Shown: positions 28,321 through 61,714 of the stretch, piece by piece
Layout: the number at the start of each line of letters is the position of its first letter
How positions within the stretch are numbered: position 1 is the stretch's first letter
Assembly (NCBI RefSeq): GCF_900143055.1
Contig: NZ_FRCW01000001.1
Location: forward strand, 1-64,000
DNA length: 64,000 nt
Direction: 5' to 3'
Source: Fibrobacter sp. UWR3
GTDB taxonomy: Bacteria > Fibrobacterota > Fibrobacteria > Fibrobacterales > Fibrobacteraceae
Position numbers and translations under genes: made by a program
The notes under the pieces: model-generated
The model's database searches: none
What the model saw: the letters and a program-made list of their open reading frames with translations, nothing else
What the model was told of the DNA's origin: nothing

Positions 28321-29685
28321 CTAAATACACCAGGCCATATACGACGGGACCTTCATTACCCCGTCATCAACCGCAAATTGTTTCGGATGGATTATAATGG
28401 ACTCGCCTATGCGTTTCTTGAATTTATCCTTGAACTTGCCGAGTGATGTTGTCGTATAATTTTTCGAAGACTTCACCTCTACCGGGAACACCTTGAAATT
28501 GACCTTGCTTTCATTAGAAATCAAGAAGTCTATCTCCATGGAATTGCGATGCTTTGCGGCATCGTATTCCGTATAGAAAAAGAGTTTGCGCCCTTTGGCT
28601 CGAATCATCTGCGCAATCATGTTTTCATGGAGCATCCCCTCGTTCAGCGAGATTTTGCCTTCCATGATGGCCTTATATAACTGGTTCGACGCAATCTCGT
28701 TTTCGCTAAAAGCAAGGCTCACCAAAAGGCCCGTATCGCACAGATAGCACTTGACCAACGAATCGTTCTTGTTCAAAGCGAAGCCGACATTGGGATCATC
28801 GCATTTATAACAAAGGTTACAAATCATTGAGTCGTCAAGCCAAAAGAGCGGCTCGTCATATTTGGAGAATGTCGCCGCATTAGACTTGTCAATCTCGGTA
28901 AGGACAATTTTTTTCTCGTGGGTTGAAAGGTAACCCGGAATGTTTTCAAAAATTGCGGAGACCTTGGAATTGTAACGCTTAGATGCCTTCCTGATATCGT
29001 CGCGATAGAGGTCCAGAATTTTCCGTTTTTCCTTGTCGCTCTTCGAAAAGTCCCGATTGTTCTCTACATACGCAACAATGCTTTGTGGCATGCCGCCCAC
29101 CAGCATATACTCCCTGAAAAGGCGCGTCGCACGCTTATGAAAATGATCTTCTAAAGGTTTCTTTTCGGCAAAGCACTTGCCAATATACTCAAGCAAGACA
29201 TCTTCGCCCAAGGCCCTGGCGAACTCCTCGAAATCGCAAGGGAACATTTTAAGTTTTTCTTCTTCGGAGGGGATTGTTATGTCATCGACATTTTCCTTTA
29301 TAGAAATCAGTGACCCCGTCTCGATGAAATCGTAGCGGCCATCCGCCACAAGGTACTTTATCGATTCCCGCGCCTTCGGGAATTTCTGGATTTCGTCAAA
29401 GATGATCAGCGACTCTCTCTTGAACAGCGGCTTATTGTATTCCAGAGACAGGACCTGGAAGAAAATGTCCAGGTTGTTCAGGTTCGTCTCGAAATTATCG
29501 CGAACCTTTTTGGAGGCCTTGTTGAAATCAACAAGAATATACGACTTGTATTCACGTTCACCGAACCGCTCGGCCACGGTGGATTTGCCAATTCGACGAG
29601 CCCCTTCTATCAGCAGGGCGCTCTTCCCGTTGGATTCTTTTTTCCATTTCACAAGACGGTTGTAGGCTTTTCTCTGAATTTCCAC
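28321..29685 (-). CDS. AAA ATPase with DUF4143-type C-terminal domain
   Basis: The 454-residue protein has Walker A GARRIGKST (about 27-35), Walker B LIIFDEIQ, and a C-terminal PD-(D/E)XK-like domain (MEIDFLIS, then FPVEVKSSKNYTTTSLGKF) typical of the large ATPase/DUF4143 family of unknown role. A GTG at 29685, six bases after GGAG, gives the family-typical start EIQRKAYNRLVKWKKESNGK; the open frame upstream runs into repeats. Gene numbers vary widely between strains in this family. Its promoter region carries three phased repeats. Confidence 0.88.
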   Translation of the reverse strand: MEIQRKAYNRLVKWKKESNGKSALLIEGARRIGKSTVAERFGEREYKSYILVDFNKASKKVRDNFETNLNNLDIFFQVLSLEYNKPLFKRESLIIFDEIQKFPKARESIKYLVADGRYDFIETGSLISIKENVDDITIPSEEEKLKMFPCDFEEFARALGEDVLLEYIGKCFAEKKPLEDHFHKRATRLFREYMLVGGMPQSIVAYVENNRDFSKSDKEKRKILDLYRDDIRKASKRYNSKVSAIFENIPGYLSTHEKKIVLTEIDKSNAATFSKYDEPLFWLDDSMICNLCYKCDDPNVGFALNKNDSLVKCYLCDTGLLVSLAFSENEIASNQLYKAIMEGKISLNEGMLHENMIAQMIRAKGRKLFFYTEYDAAKHRNSMEIDFLISNESKVNFKVFPVEVKSSKNYTTTSLGKFKDKFKKRIGESIIIHPKQFAVDDGVMKVPSYMAWCI

Positions 29686-29700
29686 AGGTTTCTCCGTTTC

Positions 29701-29779
29701 AATAGTGCGCAAAGTAAAATATATACTATTTACCAATAGTGCGCAAGGTATTTTTTTTTAAAACCGCCAATAGTGCGCA
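29701..29779. repeat. Three direct repeats, 34-bp period
   Basis: The 11-base core AATAGTGCGCA occurs at 29701, 29735 and 29769, each exactly 34 bases apart. Flanks are also similar (CC before copies 2 and 3, AAGTA/AGGTA after copies 1 and 2). The core holds the palindrome TGCGCA. The array covers the presumed promoter and leader of the ATPase gene on the minus strand. Confidence 0.9.
29716..29746 (-). promoter_or_regulatory. Likely promoter of the DUF4143 ATPase gene
   Basis: On the minus strand TTG (29746-29744) is followed by 20 bases and TATATTTT (29723-29716), one base off TAnnTTTG. The TTG is next to repeat copy 2, and the expected start of transcription falls inside copy 1, so the repeats could act as operators. 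Confidence 0.4.
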
Positions 29780-29936
29780 TAGTTTCAACTTTTTGGGGCT
29801 CTGCCAGGCTGTTCTTTGATAGGGGCGCCCTGCCCTCTTCCTGTATCCAAAGCGTATCTAAATTTTTGAGATTTGCGAAAAGTTGTGAAAAATTCAACAA
29901 TTTTGAATAAAAACGGCACTTTTGTATTAAAAAATG

Positions 29937-29974: not shown

Positions 29975-30829
29975 ATGGCCCCATTGCTGCAGTATCAAGA
30001 CTATAGGTGCTACCTGCAAAACTTCTATGACTGGAAAAAGCGGACGTCCGCTTTCTCCTGGCGCGACTTTTCCAGGATGGCGGGGTTTGCCTCGCCCGTG
30101 TTCCTGAAGCAGGTTTGCGAGGGCAAGGCGAACCTCGGGAAAAAGGCGACCGTCAAGGTGGCGGATGCGTTCGGGTTTGTCGGCGCCGAGCGCGAATACT
30201 TTTTCAACATGGTCCAGTATGCCCAGGCCAAGACCGACGAGAAGCGGCGCTACGCCTTTGCCGAGATGGAGAGCATCGCGAGCGCGAACAGGGTGGCGCA
30301 TGTCGGCACCGATGCCTACAAGTACTATGATTCCTGGGTGCACCCGGTGGTGCGTGAACTCGCGCCGGCCATGCCGGGGGCTATGCCGAAGGAAATCGCG
30401 CAGAAGTGCCTCCACGAGGTCTCGGCGAAGGAGGTGAAGGATTCCATCGATTTCCAGGTGGAGGCGGGGCTCCTCAAGAAGACGGGGCCGGGGGAATACG
30501 AGCAGACGGACAAGTTGCTGGCCGGCGATACGCAGTCGATGGCGCTGGCGGTCCGCTCCATGAACAGGCAGATGGCGCAGTTTGCCGCCGAAACCCTTGA
30601 CAGCGTCCCGGCAGACGAGCGCTTTGTCTCGGGCATTACCATGGGTGTTTCGGACGATGCCTTCGGCAAGATTGTCGAGGCGCTGCGCAAGTGCCGCGAA
30701 CAGGTGCAGAGCATAATCTTTAACGACGACAAGGTGGAGCGTGTATTGCGGCTCAACCTGCAACTATTCCCGCTGACCGAAAGGATCGGGGACACTGAAG
30801 ATACTAAAACTAAAAGGAACACGCCATGA
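29975..30829 (+). CDS. TIGR02147 family protein, putative DNA-binding regulator
   Basis: The 284-residue protein starts MAPLLQYQDYRCYLQNFYDW and continues with FSWRDFSRMAGFASPVFLKQ, a helix-turn-helix-like segment, then SAEREYFFNMV-type sequence. This is the layout of TIGR02147 (DUF4423), a family with many copies in Fibrobacter and suspected to be regulatory. The C-terminal half (residues about 150-270) is a separate helical domain. It overlaps the next gene by 4 bases (ATGA), implying coupling with that lipoprotein. Its function is not established. Confidence 0.85.
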   Translation: MAPLLQYQDYRCYLQNFYDWKKRTSAFSWRDFSRMAGFASPVFLKQVCEGKANLGKKATVKVADAFGFVGAEREYFFNMVQYAQAKTDEKRRYAFAEMESIASANRVAHVGTDAYKYYDSWVHPVVRELAPAMPGAMPKEIAQKCLHEVSAKEVKDSIDFQVEAGLLKKTGPGEYEQTDKLLAGDTQSMALAVRSMNRQMAQFAAETLDSVPADERFVSGITMGVSDDAFGKIVEALRKCREQVQSIIFNDDKVERVLRLNLQLFPLTERIGDTEDTKTKRNTP

Positions 30830-61036: not shown

Positions 61037-61063
61037 ATTTGTAAAGAAAAAGCCGTGATGCAT

Positions 61064-61714
61064 TCAGTAATGGATAATGTATTTATTCTTGCCGTTGTTA
61101 AAGCGTCCGCTAGCGTCACGGTTGTAGATTTTTGTCGGTTCGAATTTTTTTGTGTGTGCGGGGGGAAGTATTTTGGTTTGCTGTTGAGGAATGACCGTGT
61201 ATTCGCCGATAGCTTCTATTTTAGGATCAATATCGCATTTGTAATATTCATCCCAAATTTCATAATATAGAACGGAATAGTTTTTTATATATATTGTATC
61301 ACCTATATTTAGATTTAATTCACATGGATAAATAATTCTCGAATCGGCTTTTTTTGACATTGGAGACTCAATTTCGTAAGATAAGGTTACATTTTCTAGC
61401 CAAGCTGCACATCCCCAACTTTCTTCTGATGCGCTGTTATTATATAGAGGATTGTTTTGATAATGGACTGTTACACTGGAACAATAGGGTACTCCGTGTC
61501 TTATGCATTCCGACAAAAATTGAGCCTCTGCTGTTGAGTCTACAATTCCAGAAATGTTTATAGTGTGTTTTAGGCTGGGAAATGCCGAAGAATCGGCTCC
61601 GTCAAATGAATCCTCTGCCACTTGTTGCATTCCTGGAACATAAAAAAAAGAGCATTTTCCCGCAAAAACGTTGCTACAAGCAATAAAAGCAATGATAATG
61701 AGTAAGGAACGCAT
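61064..61714 (-). CDS. Secreted protein, unknown
   Basis: The 216-residue protein has a signal peptide (MRSLLIIIAFIACSNVFAG) and seven Cys in the mature part (GKCSFF, SECIRHGVPYC, WGCAAW, YPCELN, YKCDID). No domain recognised. Codon use is AT-rich compared with dcuB and dnaN on either side, so it may have been gained recently. A terminator follows it. Confidence 0.65.
   Translation of the reverse strand: MRSLLIIIAFIACSNVFAGKCSFFYVPGMQQVAEDSFDGADSSAFPSLKHTINISGIVDSTAEAQFLSECIRHGVPYCSSVTVHYQNNPLYNNSASEESWGCAAWLENVTLSYEIESPMSKKADSRIIYPCELNLNIGDTIYIKNYSVLYYEIWDEYYKCDIDPKIEAIGEYTVIPQQQTKILPPAHTKKFEPTKIYNRDASGRFNNGKNKYIIHY

Follow-up and report, generated by a model that had tools for sequence, protein, structure and literature searches.

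PDC-S01, a family of proteins in which an ATPase is fused to a PD-(D/E)XK domain, is described as ranking fourth in frequency among prokaryotic systems, most candidates of its sort still awaiting validation (PMC12988326), and no other single locus is as frequent in rumen genomes (PMC13356809). Nowhere does the text of the archaeal PDC-S01 paper mention a promoter, an operator or a direct repeat, and in those parts of the open-access literature that were searched, with subscription papers and preprints lying outside this set, we found neither a reported mechanism for PDC-S01 nor a description of repeats for DUF4143, COG1373 or PDC-S01. A described case of control at a defence promoter is that of RptR, the repressor of a type I restriction-modification island, a separate 9-kDa protein that acts through three direct repeats of 9-bp sites over the -10 region and also controls its own gene (PMC12255303). 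Here we describe three direct repeats ahead of a PDC-S01 gene in Fibrobacter sp. UWR3, found in a 64,000-nt stretch of DNA (the window; NZ_FRCW01000001.1, positions 1 to 64,000).

The gene lies on the minus strand at 28321-29685 and encodes 454 amino acids between a GTG start codon (29685-29683) and a TAG stop codon (28323-28321). Pfam matches AAA_14 (E 2.5e-21) and then DUF4143 (E 5.4e-17), both passing the cut-offs, and these are the only Pfam domains in the protein, with no transposase or recombinase domain found. The preliminary description assigned the protein to an ATPase family of unknown role, which needs updating, since PADLOC matches it across its entire length to PDC-S01 (E 1.2e-96), a candidate phage-defence family; the window gene may accordingly have a role in defence. 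The AlphaFold2 model (mean pLDDT 90.6) comprises an AAA domain (residues ~1-205), a helical linker, helices with a two-strand wing (~234-316), which by the secondary structure of the model are a winged helix, and a mixed alpha/beta C-terminal domain that is PD-(D/E)XK-like (~317-454). Fold matches to residues 1-326 were led by the archaeal ATPases 2qen (Z 16.4) and 2fna (15.1), followed by STAND proteins and ORC/Cdc6, and the modelled fold is that of an AAA+ protein with a winged helix, like Cdc6/Orc1 and these two ATPases. The C-terminal half of the model, searched by itself, gave weak nuclease matches (best Foldseek E 0.008), MspJI, Bax1, Can2 and DdmD among them, and this domain carries a conserved E-I-D...E-V-K motif. 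Across 59 homologues G28, G33, K34, D97, E98, E384, E403 and K405 are invariant and D386 is present in at least 90%, and at these alignment positions both the ATPase and the nuclease motifs are intact in the window protein. Divergent from the gene lies a TIGR02147 gene (DUF4423; 29975-30829) belonging to a Fibrobacter paralogue family.

Upstream of the GTG, a 17-nt direct repeat, CAATAGTGCGCA, is present in three copies that are 100/94/88% identical, and the steps of 34 and 34 between their starts at 29700, 29734 and 29768 confirm the exact 34-bp period reported previously. In the direction of the gene, the distal copy 1 reads AACTATGCGCACTATTG (29768-29784), the middle copy 2 TACCTTGCGCACTATTG (29734-29750) and the promoter-proximal copy 3 TACTTTGCGCACTATTG (29700-29716); on this minus strand the copies have a common part, TGCGCACTATTG, preceded by a partly conserved stretch, then variable bases. 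Core copy numbers were taken from pattern searches of the whole 3.55-Mb genome, in which the 11-mer core AATAGTGCGCA occurred three times, all in the window array, and its reversed control pattern once. Among 111 family genomes the paired window pattern was found in the window, at this gene in one further Fibrobacter, once as an array that lacks a gene, and nowhere else, and because it is so rare, the occurrence of the copies at one fixed step is no chance event.

The middle copy holds a putative -35 hexamer, TTGCGC (29746-29741), followed after a 17-nt spacer by a putative -10 hexamer, TATATT (29723-29718), and the expected transcription start falls within the proximal copy. The promoter proposed earlier, with its TTG at the middle copy and its start under the proximal one, thus holds as a sequence match (TTGCGC-N17-TATATT); it is absent from a consensus promoter scan because the first hexamer is too far from TTGACA. 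A three-copy array in an Erysipelotrichaceae MAG (L055) has its core in common with the Fibrobacter array and a downstream protein that is 67% identical, and it displays a putative -35 element at the same place, an 18-nt spacer and TATAAT at the same position between repeats. Arrays from Prevotella are instead associated with a Bacteroidota-type TAnnTTTG promoter, and promoter type seems to follow the host. Family-wide, a simple promoter scan put predicted promoters inside the array at a rate just moderately above that expected from the span of the array.

Arrays of this kind are widespread among related genes. We assembled 205 distinct homologous genes from Fibrobacter, Treponema, Prevotella and Erysipelotrichaceae, largely by similarity to the window gene, with many genomes being MAGs and start codons chosen by rule, and the array fraction therefore applies to this branch of DUF4143. 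A strong three-copy repeat, defined by a score of at least 31/39, was detected in 127/205 genes, 126 of them at a step of 31-35 bp (mostly 33) just 5' of the start codon, compared to 2/317 control upstream regions, 0/124 downstream flanks and 0/205 shuffles at that step; in a second control set an array score was reached by 1/264 upstream regions, a hit that we put down to chance. The enrichment holds within each of the four sampled lineages, and the shuffles, downstream flanks and two control sets rule out chance or an AT-rich artefact. A control gene that scored at lag 34 (L323), polysaccharide deacetylase-like by eye, has an AT-rich upstream region and was judged a chance case. When a first set of genes was compared with per-gene shuffles, 110 of 125 distinct genes had a repeat at p <= 0.01, nearly all at 32-34 bp; by this test about one-eighth of the set had no detectable array, including the fairly close homologues L142, L145, L146, L187 and L190, and distant DUF4143 genes in it often lacked one. 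Plasmid homologues from Collinsella, Vibrio, Criblamydia and Segatella are preceded by arrays at 32-33 bp and one from Acinetobacter by two copies, while no significant three-copy array was seen for the two Fusobacterium homologues or for the one from Runella.

The last copy mostly begins 10-60 bp ahead of the start codon in the 139 strong arrays, and the conserved core spans ~13-18 bp, with the remainder of the unit near background. Three copies are present in 109 of these arrays, four in 19, five in 10 and six in one, indicating that copy number is mostly fixed; the idea of a copy-number-variable control array is thus weak, with 30 arrays of four to six copies in its favour. A two-copy scan of species genomes, with copies 18-28 bp apart, also returned arrays at exactly 34 bp in Fibrobacter and in Erysipelotrichaceae, Treponema and Prevotella MAGs.

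Other DUF4143 genes have the same upstream architecture with a different repeat sequence. Within the window genome the arrays of paralogues differ from one another, except for those of two close paralogues, and a second core tested, TTGCGCTTTTGGCAA, matched at three places in the genome when up to one mismatch was tolerated, each of them within its own array. Two array cores of this genome are therefore confined to their own genes, but elsewhere repeats do occur away from any DUF4143 gene. A Fibrobacter MAG contains a two-copy array of the window type without such a gene (L049:4952-4996), the first spacer of which resembles that of the Erysipelotrichaceae array, and in a Prevotella MAG (L051:826-870) the 22-bp repeat AAACCTGCGCACTATTGACATT occurs twice, 34 bp apart, ahead of a gene that by eye is XRE-like helix-turn-helix; these two orphan arrays may be remnants. 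In Treponema (L050:3155-3590), an array with the core TGCGCATAATCAGA, as in paralogue L182, stands directly before a C-terminal DUF4143 fragment, apparently an internally deleted copy.

By single linkage the 139 arrays form 35 operator clusters, several of which can be found inside one genome, and close homologues in different phyla have their repeat sequence in common. Across phyla, operator similarity and protein identity gave a rank correlation of 0.18, compared to a maximum of 0.108 when permuted within phyla. Operators were similar in all pairs above 95% protein identity, in ~38% of pairs between phyla at 60-75% and in almost none below 50%, and the covariation was strong only above ~60% identity. 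When operator similarity was regressed jointly on the identities of the single domains, the signal came from the winged helix and the nuclease-like domain in every identity range above 45%, with little or no signal remaining for the AAA domain, and window-wise covariation peaked near residues 250-275, 295-311, 332-340 and 373-407. This covariation is an association between pairs that are not independent, array and gene being co-inherited, and joint inheritance could produce such co-divergence without any contact; the domain-specific signal in these alignments argues modestly against co-inheritance alone as the cause.

From an array whose step and place are conserved in all four lineages sampled and whose sequence diverges together with the protein, we infer, with good support, that the repeats are operators, as the preliminary description had suggested; the family-wide spread, the paralogue-specific sequences and the joint movement of array and gene were all missing from that picture. 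The reading that we favour, and regard as reasonably likely, is that the array is a self-matched operator, private to its gene and travelling with it, which the gene's own DUF4143 protein binds to repress the promoter. The data suggest that each ATPase-nuclease recognises and controls its own gene, and an autoregulated single-gene cassette is the simplest account of them. A PDC-S01 protein would bind three or more copies of the adjoining array via its C-terminal half, through contacts of the winged helix that are probably aided by the nuclease-like domain, and the bound form would be an AAA+ assembly fitting a step of approximately three helical turns. Binding would block the protein's own promoter and hold the level of the ATPase-nuclease low until release by some signal, possibly phage DNA or protein or the ATP state. 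With each operator private to its protein, many paralogues could coexist in one genome without cross-control, and array and gene would pass between genomes as one unit.

The last of these points bears on the strongest rival explanation, and the evidence for movement can be read both ways. At the window, the stretch common to non-syntenic close homologues is the array plus the gene (28321-29784, minus strand), with homology beginning at about the distal copy. Among eight orthologues from the genus in differing contexts, the common DNA mostly spans 1407-2865 of the oriented loci, with the first repeat at one limit and the stop codon at the other. Genome G088 contains two copies that are 98.8% identical across 1397 bp with unrelated flanks, and the window genome has another copy pair, 92.5% identical across 1438 bp between these same two limits. 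The 3' edge of homology lies inside the stop codon in 40 of 92 pairs with unshared context, and the 5' edge is 0-4 bp from the first repeat in 19/43. Shared context in place of a moved cassette was rejected, as even in pairs that are 92-99% identical the homology breaks off close to the first repeat and at the stop codon. Judged from these comparisons, array and gene move as one cassette, and the moved unit carries a single gene, with no partner of the toxin-antitoxin kind. In one genome, two DUF4143 copies that are 98.8% identical (L332/L333) lose homology inside the stop codon, so that the flanks supply its last two bases (TAA vs TGA).

Such sharp borders would also be expected of a mobile element. 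In that case the array would serve in cis as the end of a single-gene element that mobilises itself; the ATPase-nuclease would bind this end and move array and gene to new sites, roughly as TnsA/TnsC act at the ends of Tn7, with autoregulation a by-product of promoter overlap. We consider this unlikely. In addition to the near-identical copies and precise edges, it is favoured by direct duplications of 20-270 bp that flank 18/131 genes (including one of 80 bp that closely brackets array and gene in L063), compared to 1/264 control genes, and by the presence of COG1373 among recently transferred gut genes (PMC10782964). However, most copies lack flanking duplications, the lengths of which vary, the protein has no transposase or recombinase domain among its Pfam matches, no inverted repeat was found in the window cassette, and no arrays at the family step were found in 124 downstream flanks. 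Moreover, in the near relative G081 the window site (L298:827-1495) is occupied instead by a toxin-antitoxin-like pair, a 63-aa gene and then a PIN_3-domain gene, with flanks matching on both sides, implying that the site exchanges different cassettes. Of the control genes, a single one has direct repeats at its edges (36 bp, 92%); it lies in the window itself, at 61063-61714. In its broadest form, the proposal would make DUF4143/PDC-S01 genes a very numerous class of small elements that mobilise themselves, with many mutually private repeat specificities. Each would copy itself, precisely bounded by first repeat and stop codon, inside a genome and from one genome to another, and would use its private array both as operator and as mobilisation site; this form likewise strikes us as improbable.

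It is also possible, though we find it quite improbable, that the protein is a positive or mixed autoregulator, or that the array serves for sensing or as a decoy, an assembly site at which interference by phage would trigger the nuclease, as opposed to a plain repressor site. An AAA+ assembly would fit well on three or more evenly spaced sites, and the fold matches include STAND-type ATPases such as Avs proteins, but the window repeats overlap the -35 element and the expected start, the usual place for repression. Still more doubtful is the proposal that another regulator, a host factor or one encoded elsewhere, binds the arrays, with the DUF4143 family simply its regulon. Binding by the DUF4143 protein itself is something that we infer, and the array before the XRE-like gene in Prevotella has no DUF4143 gene nearby; nevertheless, 35 operator clusters, several per genome, would each need their own regulator, and homologous genes share cores across phyla while promoter type appears host-linked. 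Three further candidates were rejected: a single regulon of one regulator by the many different cores inside one genome, a classical transposon by the lack of inverted repeats in the window cassette and of a second end, and a CRISPR array or known RNA element by the absence of an Rfam match together with 17-bp units, short fixed 17-bp spacers and three copies.

On the favoured reading of a self-matched operator, the array would be a concrete candidate DNA target for what is reportedly one of the most abundant kinds of candidate defence gene in prokaryotes. It yields a prediction of the DNA that the protein recognises and makes regulation and triggering testable, while the many protein-repeat pairs offer material for deriving a recognition code, and the exact borders of the moved unit define what would have to be included in a test of a complete system.

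The window gene matches PDC-S01, the family with the ATPase and PD-(D/E)XK fusion, over its full length, and differs in that the array is not part of the system as described in the literature searched. Tn7 combines an AAA+ ATPase (TnsC) and a PD-(D/E)XK nuclease (TnsA) with arrays of TnsB binding sites at the element end; AAA+ and PD-(D/E)XK-like domains likewise accompany an array here, but in one fused protein, with no DDE transposase and no second end found. Orc1/Cdc6 proteins, which lack a nuclease domain, bind ORB repeats that serve as origins and often lie beside the initiator gene through an architecture of AAA+ and winged helix, an architecture also seen in the window protein (fold match 2qby), which in contrast has a nuclease-like domain. 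The iterons of plasmid Rep genes are direct repeats near the gene of a winged-helix binder that regulates itself, and the window array is similarly placed near the gene of a winged-helix protein; iterons, however, are ~20-22 bp apart and serve replication. RptR and the window gene compare in having three direct repeats at a defence promoter, which here is a candidate one, and in autoregulation, which here is proposed. In the present case, however, the 454-aa ATPase itself is the suspected binder, the repeats follow at a step of 32-34 bp and their sequence varies from paralogue to paralogue.
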